A stretch of DNA of 64,000 nt, from positions 62,001 to 126,000 of the forward strand of contig NZ_PYGE01000015.1 in assembly GCF_003014555.1 (NCBI RefSeq), written 5' to 3'. The notes under the pieces were generated by a model. The model was given only the letters and a program-made list of their open reading frames with translations. It made no database searches and was not told the origin of the DNA. How positions within the stretch are numbered: the stretch's first letter is position 1; each line of letters opens with the position of its first letter. Positions 3,745-57,160 of this stretch are shown in pieces. Made by a program: the position numbers and the translations under genes. This stretch comes from Haloactinopolyspora alba (GTDB taxonomy: Bacteria; Actinomycetota; Actinomycetes; Jiangellales; Jiangellaceae).

Positions 3745-3802
3745 GCCGGTCTTCGATGGAAGCCCGCGGGAAGAAACCCGAGAGCCACAACCGAGGACCG
3801 GC
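3745..3802 (-). ncRNA. Structured pnp leader, candidate Actino-pnp RNA
   Basis: In the leftward transcript between rpsO and pnp, a 7-bp stem (complementary segments at 3796-3802 and 3745-3751) closes a region holding a smaller stem of CGGG/CCCG type. An RNA motif called Actino-pnp is known from 5' leaders of actinobacterial PNPase genes, and the position here is right. Agreement with the published consensus was not checked, so the identity is inference; the paired segments are direct observation. A role in autoregulation of pnp is the expected function. Confidence 0.4.
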
Positions 3803-3858
3803 CGGCTACGTTCACAGTGGCCCGCCCTGTTCGGGTTGGTCGGTGTTCAGTTATACGA

Positions 3859-3896
3859 CGAGGGAGCGGCTCCCGAGGTGGGAGTCCGCTCCCTCG
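3859..3896 (-). terminator. Terminator hairpin after rpsO
   Basis: An 11-bp outer stem (CGAGGGAGCGG with CCGCTCCCTCG) continues through a small bulge into a TCCC/GGGA inner stem. It lies 10 bp beyond the rpsO stop and before the pnp leader. There is no U-run, as is usual for high-GC actinobacterial terminators. It may attenuate read-through from rpsO into pnp. Confidence 0.75.
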
Positions 3897-3905
3897 ACGA
3901 ACGTG

Positions 3906-4175
3906 TCATCGGCGCAGGCCGAGCTTCTGGATCAGCGCCCGGTAGCGGGCGACGTCGGCCGCGTACAGGTACTTGAGCATCCGGCGACGCTGCCCCACCA
4001 GCAGCAGCAGGCCGCGTCGGCTGTGGTGGTCCTGCTTGTGCGTCTTCAGGTGCTCCGTGAGGTGGTTGATGCGGTGCGTCAGCAGCGCGATCTGGACCTC
4101 GGGCGAGCCCGTGTCGCCCTCGTCGCGAGCGTGCTCGGCGATGATCTGCTGCTTCGTGGCGGTGTCGGTCGGCAC
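3906..4175 (-). CDS. rpsO: 30S ribosomal protein S15
   Basis: 89 aa, the standard S15 length. S15 binds the central domain of 16S rRNA early in 30S assembly. Family signatures are visible: [13 protein letters not shown] at the N-terminus, [17 protein letters not shown], and the basic [21 protein letters not shown] helix. The GTG at 4175 is chosen because AAGGAG sits 4-5 bp upstream and the product then starts at the family position; a longer frame to 4262 would add unrelated sequence and run through the -10 of the promoter. It lies upstream of pnp in the conserved rpsO-pnp order. Confidence 0.98.
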
Positions 4176-4261
4176 GGAACTCCTTGTCTGAATCGTTGCG
4201 CGGCGCGTCCGGGCATGTCCACCGGGGCACTGGTGACCGCGGCCGTTCTGACGGCGGCCCA

Positions 4262-4267
4262 AGAATA
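4262..4267 (-). promoter_or_regulatory. Extended -10 promoter of rpsO
   Basis: On the minus strand the hexamer TATTCT is preceded by TGG, giving an extended -10 (TGnTATTCT). No strong -35 is seen at 16-18 bp. It would start transcription about 80 nt upstream of the rpsO GTG. Confidence 0.45.
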
Positions 4268-4338
4268 CCAGCGCAACAGCGTCACAACCGAATCGATCGC
4301 TGCACAGCCGCCCAGAAACCCCCGGTGCGGGCCGTCGC

Positions 4339-4839
4339 TCAGACCTCGTCGACGCTCGCTTGCATCAGGATACCCGTCGGCCGGTAACCCAGCCGGTGGT
4401 AGAGACCGAGCGCGGCTTCGTTGTCAGCATGAGCGTCGAGCCGGATGCATCGCGCGCCGAGGCTGCGCGCCCGCTCGGCCACCGCCTGCATCAATGCGGA
4501 GCCGATACCCTGTCGTCGCCGGTCGGGATGCACTGCGACTTCCACCGACGCTGCCGGCATGTCGGCCAGCATGCTCGCTGGGCTGGGCGGCGTGAGCATC
4601 GTGACTGCGGCAAAACCCACGGCGAGGCCCGCCGCGTCGGCCATCAGCACGACCTGACCGGCGTCGTGAGCCGCGGCCCGGAAACGATCCGCCACGACAC
4701 GGACCTCGGGCACCCGGTACATCCCCGGGTCGAGTTCGACGTGATGAAGCGCGCTGCCGACGTAGAGGCGCGCGAGGTCGTCCGCGTCGTCCGGGAGACG
4801 CGCTTCGCGGATTTGCCATGCCATACCGGAGACGACCAT
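4339..4839 (-). CDS. GNAT family N-acetyltransferase
   Basis: About 166 aa from the ATG at 4839. It carries a single GNAT fold: [17 protein letters not shown] (strand 1/helix 1), [20 protein letters not shown] (motif A with the acetyl-CoA pyrophosphate loop RRQGIG), and [12 protein letters not shown] (motif B). It would transfer acetyl from acetyl-CoA to an unknown amine. The start is uncertain: a GTG at 4881 shares GTGA with the stop of the upstream regulator and has AGGAG upstream, adding 14 residues; the ATG at 4839 has only a weak site. Either way it is coupled to the XRE-TPR gene, so the pair forms one operon. Confidence 0.85.
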
Positions 4840-4877
4840 GCCCTTTCGTGCTTCTTGCTGAATCGAGATCGATCGCG

Positions 4878-6095
4878 TCACTGCACCTCGAGTCTCCTGA
4901 GACGTTCGAGGTACTCGCGTACGCGGATCTCGTCGGCATACTCGGCACGTAGTGTCGCCGCCAGTTCGCCCGCCGTCATCCGAAGGGACGGCAGTGACTT
5001 CTTGACGCCATCGTCGATCGCATGGCCACCGTGGTCGACGGCCTGCTCCAGATCGCCGGCGCGTGCGGCGGCGACGCCCAGGGTGATCCTGGCTTCGGCG
5101 ACCCGCATCGGCGCGCGTCCGGTGGGCAGAGCCCGCAGAACCTCGGTGGCCAGACCGGCGGCGACGTCGTCGACACCCAAGGTCCGGTACACGTCCATGG
5201 CGTAGAAGTCGTACTTGGCAGGGTCGACGACGAAATGGTGGGCGATGTTGTCCGGATAGGGCAGTACATCCAGGGCCTCTCGGCCACGGGCCAGGGCCAC
5301 CTCGACCTGGCGCCGGTCCCCGATGCGCGCCCACGCCTTCGCTTCTTGCGCGGCGAGTTGAGCTGCGACGCCGAATCCGTCGGCCACCTGCGCACCTGCA
5401 CGAGCGCTCGCCACCGCACCGCGGTAGTCACCCGACGTGAGCGCGAACCAGGCGCGCATCTCGTACGCCCATCCCTGGATCTCACCGTTCCCGGCCTCTG
5501 CGCCGAGGCTGTATGCGACGCGCCGAGTGGCTTCGGCGTCCAACGAGTCGCCCATGTCGTATTCCACGCAGCCGACCAGCAACGCCAACCAACCGGCCAG
5601 CGCAAGCACTTCCCGGTGCTGCTGCAGGGTGAGACGGCGATGCCGCAGATCACCTACCCGTGCGAGCCAGGTCCGGGCCTCTCGCAGTAGCTCGTCGGAC
5701 GGGGTGTGCGCATATGCCGAGCAGAGCCGGTCGGCGGTGATCCGCAATGTCTCCAAGGTCGCGCCATCGACATCGGAGCCTTGAACCCGCCCGAGCAACT
5801 CAGTCGTGTCCATTGCGACCGTCGCTACGTCGACCTCGGCGGAACGGCGTGGCGACGGGAAGAGCGCAAACCGTGTCGTGCCGAATGTCTTGGCGATGAG
5901 CGACTGATAGTGCGCGCTCGGCATGGTCGCGCCCGACTCCCAGGACTTCCACCGCCTGAGCACATGCTCCGGTTCCGGGACCGACCCGTCGCCATGAGCC
6001 GACATCGCACGCACAGCGTCAGCCTGAGACCAACCGCGCAGGTCCCGCTCGCGGCGGATGCGGTCCGCCCAGCCAGGCAACGATTCCGAGCCCAT
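4878..6095 (-). CDS. XRE-type helix-turn-helix regulator with TPR-like C-terminal region
   Basis: 405 aa. The N-terminus (about residues 5-75) is a lambda-repressor-like HTH: IRRERDLRGWSQADAVRAM is helices 1-2 and a W-KSWESG segment follows the recognition helix. Residues 120-400 are a string of alanine-rich antiparallel helices of TPR type, the layout of the Streptomyces-type XRE/TPR regulators that often bind a small peptide or protein partner. It is divergently transcribed from a small unknown gene at 6233, and the shared region has repeated GCGGTGA elements and a GGTGACAA/TTGTCACC inverted repeat. Its stop overlaps a possible GTG start of the GNAT gene. Its ligand is unknown. Confidence 0.88.
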   Translation of the reverse strand: MGSESLPGWADRIRRERDLRGWSQADAVRAMSAHGDGSVPEPEHVLRRWKSWESGATMPSAHYQSLIAKTFGTTRFALFPSPRRSAEVDVATVAMDTTELLGRVQGSDVDGATLETLRITADRLCSAYAHTPSDELLREARTWLARVGDLRHRRLTLQQHREVLALAGWLALLVGCVEYDMGDSLDAEATRRVAYSLGAEAGNGEIQGWAYEMRAWFALTSGDYRGAVASARAGAQVADGFGVAAQLAAQEAKAWARIGDRRQVEVALARGREALDVLPYPDNIAHHFVVDPAKYDFYAMDVYRTLGVDDVAAGLATEVLRALPTGRAPMRVAEARITLGVAAARAGDLEQAVDHGGHAIDDGVKKSLPSLRMTAGELAATLRAEYADEIRVREYLERLRRLEVQ

Positions 6096-50905: not shown

Positions 50906-52147
50906 GTGAACGCTCCCGGCGGCACTCCGGCGACCGTCGACGCCGGCTCGGCGGCCTACCGGCGCGTCGTCGTCGCCATGACCGCGGCGGGCATCGCGAC
51001 GTTCTCTCAGTTGTATGCGGTGCAGGCGGTGCTGCCGGCGGTCGCCGCGACCTTCGACGCGCCGGCCGCGCACGCCGCGCTCACGGTCTCGTTCGCCACC
51101 GGCGCGCTCGCGGTGTCGGTGCTGGTCTGGAGCGGACTCGCGGATCGGTTCGGCCGGGTTCCGGTCATGACCGCGGCGCTGGCGGCGTCGTCCGTCCTCG
51201 GCCTGATCGCCCCGCACGCCGAGCAGCTGTGGGTGCTGATCGCGCTCCGTGCGCTGCAGGGGGCGGCGCTCGGTGGTGTGCCGGCCGTGGCGATGGCCTA
51301 CCTGGCCGAGCGCGTCGTGCCGGAACGCCTGGGCCGCGCCGCCGGTGCGTACGTCGCCGGCACGAGCATCGGCGGCATGAGTGGACGCCTCGTCGCCGGG
51401 GCCGTCGCCGACGCCGGCGGCTGGCGCACCGGCGTCGGAGCCGATGCCGCGCTGGGCGTGCTCGCACTGGCCGTGTTCGTGGTGCTGATCCCCCGCGACA
51501 GCGGCAGGGCCCGCCCCGCGGGCGGCAGTGGCACCACCGGCGACGCGGCCGACGCCGGCGACGGACTCGCACCGGACCGCCTGGTCCACCGGATCGGCGC
51601 CCAGCTGCGCGAACCCGGCATGCTGGCGCTGTACGCGCAGGCGTTCCTGCTCATGGGCGCGTTCGTGACCGTCTACAACTACCTGGGATTCCGGCTCACC
51701 GGGCCGCCGTTCGACGTCTCGCAGACCGTGGTGGCGTTCCTGTTCGTCGCCTACCTGGCGGGCACGGTCGGCTCGGCGACGGTCGGGCGGATCGGCGAGC
51801 GCCTGGGCCGGAGGCCGGTCCTGCTGCTCACGACCGGCGGGATCGTCCTCGGGACGGTGCTGCTGCTGAGCCCGGCACTTCCGGTGATCTCCGCCGGCCT
51901 GGTGGTGCTGACCTTCTGCTTCTTCGCCGCGCACGCGACTGCCGCCGGCTGGGTGGGGCTGCGGGCCCGCACCGGGCGGGCGCAGGCAGCGGCCCTGTAC
52001 ACGCTGGCGTACTACCTCGGATCCAGCCTGTTCGGCTGGCTCGGCGGCCTCGTCTACGACGGCCTCGGCTGGCACGGCGTCGTCGGCTACGTGGTGGCGC
52101 TGTGCCTCACCGCCGCCCTGACCACCCACCCCCTGCGCCGAGAATGA
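50906..52147 (+). CDS. MFS transporter, YnfM-like (12 TM)
   Basis: 413 aa. Twelve hydrophobic helices in two groups of six with a central hydrophilic loop (about 200-225, RDSGRARPAGGSGTTGDAADAG). Motif A is GLADRFGRVPVM in the first half and GRIGERLGRRPVL in the second. It begins MTAAGIATFSQLYAVQAVLPAVAATF, typical of the YnfM/arabinose-type group. Substrate unknown. The start is a GTG at 50906 with no ribosome site but with a -10 just 7 bp upstream, so a leaderless mRNA is likely. It converges on the DivIVA-VOC gene, 4 bp between stop codons. Confidence 0.93.
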   Translation: MNAPGGTPATVDAGSAAYRRVVVAMTAAGIATFSQLYAVQAVLPAVAATFDAPAAHAALTVSFATGALAVSVLVWSGLADRFGRVPVMTAALAASSVLGLIAPHAEQLWVLIALRALQGAALGGVPAVAMAYLAERVVPERLGRAAGAYVAGTSIGGMSGRLVAGAVADAGGWRTGVGADAALGVLALAVFVVLIPRDSGRARPAGGSGTTGDAADAGDGLAPDRLVHRIGAQLREPGMLALYAQAFLLMGAFVTVYNYLGFRLTGPPFDVSQTVVAFLFVAYLAGTVGSATVGRIGERLGRRPVLLLTTGGIVLGTVLLLSPALPVISAGLVVLTFCFFAAHATAAGWVGLRARTGRAQAAALYTLAYYLGSSLFGWLGGLVYDGLGWHGVVGYVVALCLTAALTTHPLRRE

Positions 52148-52151
52148 CCAC

Positions 52152-53441
52152 TCAGGGGGCGACCACCTCGACCTCGAACCCCTCGTCGTTCTCCATGTAG
52201 GCGGCGTAGTGGTGCGGCCCGCCCGCGTGCGGGTGCCGGTCGGCGAACATCAGCCGCCAGCCGTACGCCGGCGCCTCGGAGACGATCCGGTCGACCATCC
52301 ACTGCTCGGGCACCGCCAGCGCCAGGTGGTTCAGCCCGGGCGCCTTGCGGTCGTAGGCCACCCAGCTCATGTCCGGGGACGTCTCGACGACCACGTACGG
52401 GCCGCCTCCCGGTGCCTGCCAGGACCGGCCGTGTTCCCAGGCCTGGAACAGCGTCCACCCGAGCCGCTCGAACAGCCACCCGAACGACCGTGTCGCGAGG
52501 TCGAGGTCACGGACCCACACCTCGACGTGGTGCAGGCCCGTCGACGGCGTCGTCGACGGACTCAGCGGCTGATCGTCGACACCCGTGTCGTCGACGGGCA
52601 CCTGGCCGTGCGCGGACTGATGCTGATCGGCCGCCGCGAACGACGGATCGAGCGCGCGCAGGACCGGGTCGAGCTCGTTCACCGCGGAGTCGGTCAACGG
52701 GTCGTAGCCGGGCACCGTGTTCTTGGCGACTCCGGGCGACGATCCGTGCGACGTGCCCGGCACGGAACCGTGCGACGTCGCTGGCGCCTGCCCGTAAGCC
52801 TGGCCGTAACCCGTGGCCGGGCCCTGATCGGGCTCGTAGTACTGCGGGTATCCGGCGCCCGGCTGCCCCGACACTCCCGGCCCGGGCTGTGCCGGTGCGC
52901 CCATCCCCGGGTAGCCGCCGACAGGCGGCGGTGCCGGTGACGGCGCCACCGGAGGCGACGGCATCGGTGGCTGCGGCGACGCCGGTGCGGCCGGCGCCTG
53001 GCCGTACTGCGCTCCCGGCTGTCCGTGCTGCGTACCGGCGGCGGCGGCGTGCTGCGTGACCGCCGGGGCCTGCTGCGTCGGCTGTGGCTGTTGGGCCGCG
53101 GGCGCCTGGGTTGCGCCGTAGCTCTGCGCCTGCGGTTGCGCCGGTGGCTGCTGTGCGGGTGCCTGCTGCGCCGGGCCCTGCTGGGCGGCAGCCTTGCGCA
53201 TGCGGCGCAGTTCCGCCGCGGCGGCGTCGAGCCAGTCGTCGACGTCGTCCATGACGTAGCCCTCGCGCATCCGCACGACCTTGAACTCCTCACCCTCGAC
53301 CTGCTCCGGTGTCACCCCCCGCCCGGAGCTGCGCCCGTCCAGCGCATCGATCACCAGGTCGACGAAGTCGTCGACAGCGTCCAGGTCATAGCCCTCGCGC
53401 ATACGGGTGGTACGAAACTCGGGCTCGCGACTGACGGCCAC
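52152..53441 (-). CDS. Fusion protein: two DivIVA-type motifs, Pro/Gln-rich linker, VOC domain
   Basis: 429 aa in one uninterrupted frame. Two DivIVA-type repeats lie at about residues 9-35 (FRTTRMREGYDLDAVDDFVD) and 53-80 (FKVVRMREGYVMDDVDDWLD). A linker of about 220 residues rich in Gln, Pro, Ala, Gly and Tyr follows. Residues about 303-429 form a VOC (glyoxalase-fold) domain with all four candidate metal ligands: HHVEV, YVVVE, NHLAL and FEVEVV. The N-terminus suggests targeting to a pole, septum or coiled-coil scaffold; the C-terminus suggests a metal-dependent enzyme or binding module. It lies 125 bp downstream of rlmN. No frameshift or stop separates the parts. The GTG at 53441 has GGAGGAG about 11 bp upstream. 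Confidence 0.85.
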   Translation of the reverse strand: MAVSREPEFRTTRMREGYDLDAVDDFVDLVIDALDGRSSGRGVTPEQVEGEEFKVVRMREGYVMDDVDDWLDAAAAELRRMRKAAAQQGPAQQAPAQQPPAQPQAQSYGATQAPAAQQPQPTQQAPAVTQHAAAAGTQHGQPGAQYGQAPAAPASPQPPMPSPPVAPSPAPPPVGGYPGMGAPAQPGPGVSGQPGAGYPQYYEPDQGPATGYGQAYGQAPATSHGSVPGTSHGSSPGVAKNTVPGYDPLTDSAVNELDPVLRALDPSFAAADQHQSAHGQVPVDDTGVDDQPLSPSTTPSTGLHHVEVWVRDLDLATRSFGWLFERLGWTLFQAWEHGRSWQAPGGGPYVVVETSPDMSWVAYDRKAPGLNHLALAVPEQWMVDRIVSEAPAYGWRLMFADRHPHAGGPHHYAAYMENDEGFEVEVVAP

Positions 53442-53566
53442 CAGGTGTCACTCTCCTCCCGGACGTAAACCGGCCGGTCCCGAGGAACTTCCGGCGACGG
53501 TGAGCCAGCCACTCACGCACCGGAAGCCGATATCCCCCGAGACCGGCCAAGCCAAGCGAATGCATA

Positions 53567-54700
53567 CTAATCGGTAACGGTCGCCAACTGACCACACGCC
53601 CCGTCGATGTCGCTGCCGCGGGTGTCCCGGACCGTGACCGGGATCCCGCGCGCCTGCAACGTCGAGACGAACTCCGCCTCGACCTCCGGACGCGACGCCG
53701 TCCACTTCGAACCCGGGGTCGGGTTCAGCGGGATCGGGTTGACGTGCACCCAGCCGCGGCCCCGCGCGTCGAGCATCCGGCCCAGCCGGTCGGCGCGCCA
53801 CGCCTGGTCGTTGATGTCACGGATCAGCGCGTACTCGATGGACACGCGCCGGCCCGTGGAGTCGAAGTAGCGGCGCGCAGCATCGAGCGCCTCGTCGACC
53901 TTCCAGCGGGTGTTCACCGGGACCAGCTCGTCACGTAGCTCGTCGTCGGGTGCGTGCAGCGACAGCGCCAGCGTGACACCCAGGTCGGCGGCGGCGAGCT
54001 TGTCGATGGCCGGTGCGAGCCCGACCGTCGACACCGTGACGCCCCGGCGGCTGATGCCCATGCCCGAGGGCGCGGCCTCGGTCAGCCGCCGCACCGCCTC
54101 GACCACCGGCCGATAGTTCGCCAGGGGTTCGCCCATGCCCATGAACACGACGTTCGACACGCGCCCCGGCCCCCCGGGAACCTCGCCGTCGTCGAGCATC
54201 CGTTCCGCCGCCACGACCTGTTCGACGATCTCGGCCGCCGACATGTTCCGGGTGAGGCCCTGTTGACCCGTCGCGCAGAACGGGCAGTTCATGCCGCAGC
54301 CGGCCTGGCTGGACACGCACAGCGTCACCCGCGGGCGCGTGCCCTCGTAACGCATCAGCACGCTCTCGACCAGAGCCCCGTCGTACAACCGCCACAGCGT
54401 CTTGCGGGTGGTCCCGTTGTCGGTCTCGACGTGCCGGACCGGGGTCACCAAGGTCGGAAGCAGCGAGCCCGCGAGCGACTCTCGCACGGCCGCCGGCAGG
54501 TCGGTCATCTCGTGCGGGTCGCGGACGTAGCGCGTGAAGTAGTGCCGGGACAGCTGATCGGCACGGAACGGCTTCTCACCGAGTTCGGCGACGGCCTTCC
54601 TGCGGCCGTCGACGTCGAGGTCAGCGAGGTGGCGGGGCGGCTTGCCACGTCGTGCGGGTTCTAGGGTCAGTTCACCTGGCTCGGGCATGATGCCGCTCAT
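53567..54700 (-). CDS. rlmN: 23S rRNA (adenine-C2503-C2)/tRNA A37 methyltransferase RlmN
   Basis: 377 aa radical-SAM enzyme. The 4Fe-4S motif CxxxCxxC is in [19 protein letters not shown]. The SAM region [11 protein letters not shown] and the strand [17 protein letters not shown] follow, and the second catalytic cysteine is near the C-terminus in [11 protein letters not shown]. Length is normal. The ATG at 54700 has GGGACA just upstream; an ATG at 54688 would shorten it by 4 residues. It follows cdsA in the conserved rpsB-tsf-pyrH-frr-cdsA-rlmN order. Confidence 0.96.
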
Positions 54701-54806
54701 TGTCCCACGCATCGCAACCGTGCCCATCACACCGAGACCCGCTTCACCCGAAACGCGAGGTTTTCCAGGGAGCGAACGTGACGCCAGCGCGGTCCGTTCC
54801 CCGCCG

Positions 54807-55703
54807 TCAGGTGGTCACGACGTACTCGAGCACCAGCCAGACCAACGGCGCCGTGGGCAGCAGGGAGTCCAGGCGGTCCATCAGCCCGCCGTGCCCCGGA
54901 AGCAGCGAGCTCATGTCCTTGACGCCGAGGTCACGTTTGATCATCGACTCGCCGAGATCGCCCAGAGTGGCTCCCACGACGCCGACCAGCCCGAGCACGA
55001 CGCCGGTCCACCAGGCGGCGTCGAAGGCCAGCACCGCCACGGCCACGCCCGCGCCCACGCCCAGCAGGATCGACCCGCCGAGGCCCTCCCACGACTTCTT
55101 CGGGCTCACGCTCGGAGCCATCGGGTGCCGGCCGGTGAACACGCCCGCCGTGTACCCGCCGACATCGGAGGCGACGACGACCGCCAACAGCGCGAACACG
55201 CGCCAGTGCCCGTCGTCGGCACGCGCCATCAGCGTCGCGAACCCGGCGAGGAACGGGATGTAGGCGCTGGTGAACACGCCCGCCGCGACGTCACGGAGAT
55301 AGCCGTCACGGCCGTCGCCCAGCCGCCAGGTGCCCACCGCCAGCACGGTCAGCCCCAGGCCGACCATCAACGGCGACCCGCCACCGGCGAACGCGCCCAC
55401 GAGCATCAGCACCGCGCCCAGCATCACCGGGACGACCGGGACGGCGACGCCGCGCTGGCTCATCGCCGTGGCGAGCTCCCACACCGCGACGAGCATGACG
55501 AGCACGACGAGCCCGACGAAGGCCGGAATGAACAGGAACAGCGTGCACAGCACGACGACGGCGAGCCCGACGCCCACCGCGGTCGCGGCGCGCAGGTCCC
55601 GCCCGGCCCGCCCGTGCCGGCGCGGCGGATCGGACGCTGCGCGCCGACGCTTCCCCCCGGGGGGCGCCTCGGGCGGCTCGGCCTGCTCGTCGGTCATCAC
55701 CAC
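54807..55703 (-). CDS. cdsA: Phosphatidate cytidylyltransferase (CDP-diglyceride synthase)
   Basis: 298 aa integral membrane enzyme that makes CDP-diacylglycerol from phosphatidate and CTP. About eight membrane helices follow a basic/proline-rich cytosolic N-terminus of 40 residues. The family signature near the C-terminus is intact: [20 protein letters not shown] followed by GLMDRLD. The start is GTG at 55703 (alternatives GTG 55700 and ATG 55697). It lies 6 bp after the frr stop, so it is in the same operon. Confidence 0.96.
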
Positions 55704-55709
55704 GTGTTC

Positions 55710-56267
55710 TCAGACCTCGAGCAGCTCGGATTCCTTGTGCTTGAGCAGCTCGTCGATCTGGTCGATGTGGTTCTTGGTCATCGTCTCGAGTTGCTTCTCG
55801 GCGCGCGCGACCTCGTCCTCGCCGACCTCGCCGTCCTTGGCCAGCTTGTCCAGCGTCTCTTTCGCGTGCCTGCGTACGCTGCGGATGGACACCCGCGAGC
55901 CCTCGGCCTTCTCCTTGGCGACCTTGATGTACTCGCGCCTGCGCTCCTCGGTGAGCGTGGGCAGGTTCACCCGGATCAGCGTGCCGTCGTTGCTCGGGTT
56001 GACGCCGAGGTCGGAGTCGCGGATGGCCCGCTCGATGGCGCCGAGTGAGCTCTTGTCGTACGGCTGCACCGTGATCATTCGAGCGTCGGCCACATGGAAC
56101 GACGCGAGCTGGTTGACCGGCGTCGGCGAGCCGTAATAGTCCACCATGATCTTGTTGAACAGCGACGGGTGGGCCCGCCCGGTCCGGATCGTGGCGAAGT
56201 CCTCCTTGCCGACCGACACGGCCTTCTCCATCTTCTCCTCGGCTTCGAGGAGGGTTTCGTCGATCAC
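55710..56267 (-). CDS. frr: Ribosome recycling factor
   Basis: 185 aa, normal length. RRF splits post-termination ribosomes with EF-G. The three-helix coiled coil and small beta domain are evident: [65 protein letters not shown] and the C-terminal [18 protein letters not shown]. The GTG at 56267 has AAGGAG 5 bp upstream. It is between pyrH and cdsA as in nearly all actinobacteria. Confidence 0.97.
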
Positions 56268-56356: not shown

Positions 56357-57160
56357 CTACGACGCGCCCGTCTGGATGACGGTTTCGACATCCGAGGCGA
56401 CCACGGTACCGATCTGCTCTCCCCGGATGGCTCGTGCGATTCCATTCTCCTCGCCCAAGCCGAATACGACGATCGGGAGCTGGTTCTCCATGCACAGGCT
56501 GAAGGCGGCTGGGTCGGCCACGCTCAGGCGGCGGCGCAGCACCTCGCCGTAGGTGACCGAGACGTACTTGCGTGCGGCCGGCTCGACCCGCGGGTCGGCG
56601 TCGTACACGCCGTCGACGCCGTTCTTGCCCATCAGCAGCCGGTCGCAGCCGATCTCGAGCGCGCGCTGCGCGGCGACGGTGTCGGTGGTGAAGTACGGCA
56701 TCCCGGCGCCCGCGCCGAAGATGACCACACGCCCCTTCTCGAGGTGGCGGGCGGCGCGGCGCGGAATGTAGGGCTCGGCGACCTGGCCCATGGTGATGGC
56801 GGTCTGCACGCGCGTGTCGACGCCCCGGTGCTCGAGGAAGTCCTGCAGCGCCAGGCAGTTCATGACGGTGCCGAGCATGCCCATGTAGTCACCGCGGGCA
56901 CGGTCCATGCCGGCGTGCTGCAGCTCGGAGCCGCGGAAGAAGTTGCCGCCGCCGACCACGATCGCGACCTCGACTCCGCCGTCCACGACGGTGGCGATCT
57001 GTTCGGCGATCCGCTTGACGACGATGGGGTCGACGCCGACCTCGCCGCCGCCGAACACCTCGCCGGACAGTTTCAGCAGTACGCGCCGGCGGGTGCCGGC
57101 GCCGTCGGCCGGCGGCACGGCCGAGGCCGGCACCGTTTCGGTTTCACTCGTCTCCGTCAC
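56357..57160 (-). CDS. pyrH: UMP kinase (uridylate kinase)
   Basis: 267 aa. It phosphorylates UMP to UDP. Amino-acid-kinase fold: [20 protein letters not shown] at the phosphate-binding start, [30 protein letters not shown] for [23 protein letters not shown] and [18 protein letters not shown]. An N-terminal tail of about 25 residues rich in Thr, Glu, Pro and Ala precedes the kinase core; the GTG at 57160 with AGGAGG 8 bp upstream supports it as real. It sits between tsf and frr. Confidence 0.97.

Follow-up and report, generated by a model that had tools for sequence, protein, structure and literature searches.

The window, a stretch of 64,000 nucleotides from Haloactinopolyspora alba, carries on its reverse strand a single uninterrupted open reading frame at positions 52152 to 53441. 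Translation of this frame from the GTG start codon to the stop codon yields a protein of 429 amino acids, in which two DivIVA-like motifs (residues ~5 to 82) are followed by a linker of ~215 residues and a C-terminal VOC domain. The first motif (residues 5-37; 53331..53429, minus strand; core FRTTRMREGYDLDAVDDFVDLVIDAL) is detected by TIGR03544 and by a motif HMM, and the second (residues 50-81; 53199..53294, minus strand; core FKVVRMREGYVMDDVDDWLDAAAAEL) by TIGR03544 and by a profile of the motif pair. The linker (residues 87-301; 52539..53183, minus strand) is rich in Pro, Gln, Ala, Gly and Tyr, and the VOC domain, of the Glyoxalase_4 type, occupies residues 302-429 (52155..52538, minus strand). 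The reading of this frame and the profile matches bear out the coordinates and domain description of the original prediction, namely two tandem DivIVA-type motifs, a Pro/Gln/Tyr-rich linker of about 220 residues, and a VOC domain that keeps four metal-ligand positions.

The fusion gene lies directly behind cdsA and rlmN, as had been claimed, at the end of a same-strand run of rpsB, tsf, pyrH, frr, cdsA and rlmN. Its immediate upstream neighbor is rlmN (53567..54730, minus strand; TIGR00048, 319.8 bits), across a gap of 125 bp. Farther upstream are cdsA, encoding phosphatidate cytidylyltransferase (54807..55703, minus strand), frr, encoding ribosome recycling factor (55710..56267, minus strand), and, four genes upstream, pyrH, encoding UMP kinase (56357..57160, minus strand). 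On the other side, a convergent gene for an MFS transporter (50906-52147, plus strand) ends 4 bp from the fusion-gene stop codon. A scan of positions 52000 to 54000, which misses some actinobacterial promoter types, gave neither a sigma-70-like promoter nor an intrinsic terminator.

The N-terminal part of the protein fits the PolyDIV family, judging from profiles and motif arrangement. PolyDIV proteins are actinobacterial and carry two to eight DivIVA-like domains in each chain. These domains come in pairs, which are predicted to form DivIVA-like heads within the chain; UMP kinase is encoded in the vicinity of most PolyDIV clusters (Martinez-Goikoetxea and Lupas 2023, PMC9858780). The fusion protein likewise has two DivIVA-like motifs, paired with a short connector, and pyrH is near its gene on the same strand. 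The NCBIfam DivIVA domain model TIGR03544 matches two stretches of the protein with 46.8 bits (cut-off 22). In motif HMM comparisons, the two motifs together match PolyDIV motif pair 3-4 as one block with 49 bits, and pair 1-2 with 39 bits. The spacing between their two GY dipeptides is 44, against a range of 40-44 for almost every PolyDIV pair that was measured. Other models score below their thresholds: the Pfam DivIVA model gives 23.5 bits (gathering score 28), NF050102 (DivIVA/Wag31) gives 17.2 bits (cut-off 260), and TIGR03543 (DivIVA domain repeat protein), with which the PolyDIV family probably overlaps, gives 20.7 bits (curated cut-off 154.2) over 78 of its 178 positions. A low TIGR03543 score is expected, because the fusion protein has only two motifs.

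The motifs GYDLDAVD and GYVMDDVD do not match the PolyDIV search pattern GY[DN]xx[QE]V[DN]. This pattern is the one that the authors used for collecting sequences, and the family is defined by several DivIVA-like domains per chain; thus, the profile match stands. The departure from the pattern may be the reason that the Jiangellaceae branch was not reported as PolyDIV. A single-motif paralog of DivIVA/Wag31 was considered and rejected, because the protein has two motifs and, in place of a coiled coil, a Pro/Gln-rich linker.

The VOC assignment is based on sequence profiles. Pfam Glyoxalase_4 (PF13669) matches residues 304-415 over its full profile (1-109) with 43.2 bits (gathering score 27), and the nearest solved structure is PDB 3ct8, a putative glyoxalase of Bacillus halodurans (E=1e-22). 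The domain is ~52-55% identical over its full length to stand-alone copies from Streptomyces and Nonomuraea. Positions H305 (or H304), E353, H372 and E425, which we take to be the metal-ligand columns from the correspondence to H5, E56, H74 and E122 of E. coli glyoxalase I, are invariant in 19 of 19 fused rows. The 38 non-fused rows all have H372 and E425; 37 of them have H305 and 32 have E353. With the ligand columns kept, a degenerate VOC domain is ruled out. Alignment only with metal-lacking members had been named as a finding that would speak against a tethered enzyme; the domain aligns with relatives that keep the ligands.

The stand-alone VOC loci examined, which were read by eye, have no consistent neighbor (ABC transporters, guaA and others occur). 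Thus, a link between this VOC subfamily and cell division would rest on the fusion and on one case of adjacent genes, described below. Also by eye, three genomes from a single family (G161, G151 and G077; loci L162, L163 and L164, respectively) were seen to have a gene for an LLM/F420-type oxidoreductase adjoining or near the stand-alone VOC gene.

Most of the linker differs between orthologs in both length and sequence, and its predicted confidence is low. However, PLTDSAVxELDPxLRAL is invariant in all 14 aligned orthologs, and a second conserved stretch, TPST, occurs just before the VOC domain. The first of these lies within YDPLTDSAVNELDPVLRAL (residues 246-264; 52650..52706, minus strand), an island of conservation that may be a docking peptide. 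It is predicted to be partly helical, and a helix at residues 258-264 appears with low confidence in the AlphaFold model. Structure prediction, proposed as a check on the original idea, was carried out and gave poor models, with a mean pLDDT of 40.6 for the full-length protein (helices at 20-34 and 65-87) and 60.0 for the VOC domain alone. This weakness is most likely due to only eight close orthologs being usable. A Foldseek search with the weak VOC model again has 3ct8 as its top match (E=8.6e-3, probability 0.96); the modest strength of this match is the reason that the profiles carry the assignment.

The fusion is real and old, as read from its conservation. Its close orthologs are in Jiangella species, and genomes of the same family, whose Jiangellaceae label is inferred from orthologue matches, share the gene. 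Every complete Jiangellaceae ortholog inspected has two DivIVA motifs and a VOC domain in one frame, as the original prediction had described for this locus, and the gene directly follows rlmN wherever flanking sequence was fetched. The 394 Actinomycetes genomes sampled include 22 of the family, and 21 of these have the VOC domain, the lone exception being an 81%-complete genome (G004). Broken orthologs are those of Jiangella rhizosphaerae (L004/L009) and G009, which are cut by contig ends, and no split or lost half was seen in the sampled Jiangellaceae. Conservation of the complete architecture throughout the family shows that the fusion is not a chance event. Purifying selection is strong on both parts, with a median dN/dS of 0.10 in the DivIVA part and 0.085 in the VOC domain. 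All fused VOC domains form one clade with a support of 100/100.

Three Jiangellaceae genomes of one genus (g3) encode a second, four-motif PolyDIV paralog that lacks a VOC domain (L188 637-2379, plus strand; L189 1031-1681, plus strand; L190 1728-2264, minus strand). The VOC rows of this genus group with Jiangella. No such paralog was found in the genome that the window comes from.

In the sample, the fusion is restricted to Jiangellaceae. The same VOC subfamily is found in 35 of the 372 other Actinomycetes genomes (E<=1e-20), and none of the 34 loci read among these 35, with 1.5-2.6 kb of flank, has a DivIVA motif in frame with the VOC domain. In one genome of another order (G044), rlmN (4731-5843), a four-motif DivIVA repeat gene (4162-4719) and a VOC gene (3755-4147) are three adjacent separate genes on one strand (locus L120), with a gap of about 11 nt between the PolyDIV and VOC genes. 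Homologs with the halves as two separate genes had been named as evidence against a tethered enzyme. They were encountered only here, and because they are immediate neighbors in the same gene order, they link the halves rather than separate them.

Of 40 rlmN regions from outside Jiangellaceae, five have a DivIVA-repeat gene directly behind rlmN, and one more has such a gene at a distance of about 4 kb. The five adjacent genes score 103-207 bits against TIGR03543, one of them above the cut-off of 154. By a rough estimate, the probability that any of 35 scattered VOC genes would stand beside a PolyDIV locus by chance, in genomes of ~4000 genes, is a few in a hundred; the G044 arrangement is therefore suggestive, and not proof. 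The VOC tree neither shows nor rejects shared ancestry, with the G044 domain as sister of the fused clade giving a p-AU of 0.27. Probably, a two-motif PolyDIV protein gained the VOC domain at its C terminus in the ancestor of Jiangellaceae, when two neighboring genes downstream of rlmN fused.

The same VOC subfamily is the C-terminal part of other one-frame fusions. In three genomes of one genus, it follows a methyltransferase and a NUDIX domain (L042 388-1890, G050; L172 1414-2979, G340; L177 1440-2996, G363; all plus strand). In another genome (G297), it follows an RNase H-type domain and a Pro/Ala linker (L182 2554-3789, minus strand); this product scores 70.6 bits against PF13456 and 22.5 bits against PF00903 (Glyoxalase). 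The VOC subfamily is thus a readily shared module.

The PolyDIV-type part of the fusion protein is probably a cell-division or growth-zone adaptor, and tethering of the VOC domain at a DivIVA-marked membrane is the mechanism that the sequence evidence leads us to favor. Most likely, the two DivIVA-like motifs of a chain pair with each other and form a single DivIVA-type head. This head would dock the protein to the polar or septal assembly organized by DivIVA/Wag31, or to its membrane. Because the C-terminal oligomerization coiled coil of DivIVA is absent, the protein is just as likely to be recruited by partner proteins as to bind the membrane directly. The motif PLTDSAVxELDPxLRAL is probably a second docking site, and the long disordered linker and this motif together might hold the VOC metal site at the docking place, where it would act on or bind a small metabolite. 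We give even odds to the overall proposal of a PolyDIV-VOC adaptor whose head docks at the DivIVA-marked pole or septum, or at the membrane, and whose linker holds the VOC domain there. A more specific form is tentative: the VOC domain might be a metal-dependent enzyme built into the adaptor and delivered to the pole or septum, so that metabolite conversion or detoxification is coupled to envelope growth, with the linker motif as a docking switch.

VOC folds include pure binders. The domain could accordingly be a noncatalytic sensor, in which metabolite binding acts on the DivIVA head or on the linker to regulate growth or division. We consider this reading doubtful. It would suit the portable C-terminal placement of the VOC subfamily on methyltransferase-NUDIX and RNase H proteins, and in such a sensor the conserved motif of the linker might serve as a switch within the molecule. 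The four glyoxalase I-type ligand positions in every fused copy instead favor a metal site in use, although they are not decisive, because such a site can serve binding too.

Alternatively, the fusion might be a convenience of co-expression, in which a lost stop codon joined two neighboring genes with unrelated jobs, and no spatial coupling resulted. The close spacing of the G044 genes, the length and variability of the linker, and the attachment of the VOC subfamily to several unrelated proteins are all compatible with such a merger. Nonetheless, we consider it unlikely, given that the whole sampled family keeps the fusion without a split and that one particular motif of the linker shows strong conservation. 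A sequencing or assembly error joining two genes has a negligible probability; no support for it was found, and it is ruled out by independent assemblies, several of them single-contig, that have the same frame.

PolyDIV proteins occur widely among actinobacteria, and concrete clues to their role are very scarce; a VOC fusion is one of them. This clue draws its weight from the retention of the fusion throughout a family and from its counterpart in another order, where the two parts are separate genes side by side. The fusion predicts that PolyDIV heads serve as adaptors by which other activities are positioned. It also provides a testable handle on a VOC subfamily that is shared with NUDIX-methyltransferase and RNase H proteins.

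The only additional folded domain reported for PolyDIV proteins is a Ser/Thr kinase (PMC9858780). The original prediction regarded the architecture as undescribed. This holds for the combination of PolyDIV and VOC, which was not found in the papers searched, but not for the N-terminal part, which is that of a published family; the protein thus represents a new architecture of a known family. The literature search yielded no paper joining DivIVA with Jiangella, and in the two papers mentioning DivIVA, glyoxalase and fusion, these terms were absent from the title and abstract.

The fusion protein resembles PolyDIV proteins in having multiple paired DivIVA-like motifs per chain, in its actinobacterial origin, in the nearby UMP kinase gene, and in the position of its gene behind rlmN, which is shared with DivIVA-repeat genes in five unrelated genomes. 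It differs in having two motifs only, whereas most PolyDIV proteins have four, in the degeneracy of these motifs relative to the published pattern, and in its long disordered linker and VOC domain. With DivIVA/Wag31, it has the N-terminal motif in common, and the Wag31-like DivIVA of its own genome reads very similarly (VRLREGYDMQEVDEFLD). However, the fusion protein has two motifs rather than one, is without an extended coiled coil, and ends with a VOC domain. Stand-alone VOC proteins of Streptomyces and relatives match the fused VOC over the full domain, and 3ct8 matches it as well, but the stand-alone proteins are unfused and have varied gene neighbors, whereas the fused copies stand on a branch of their own.
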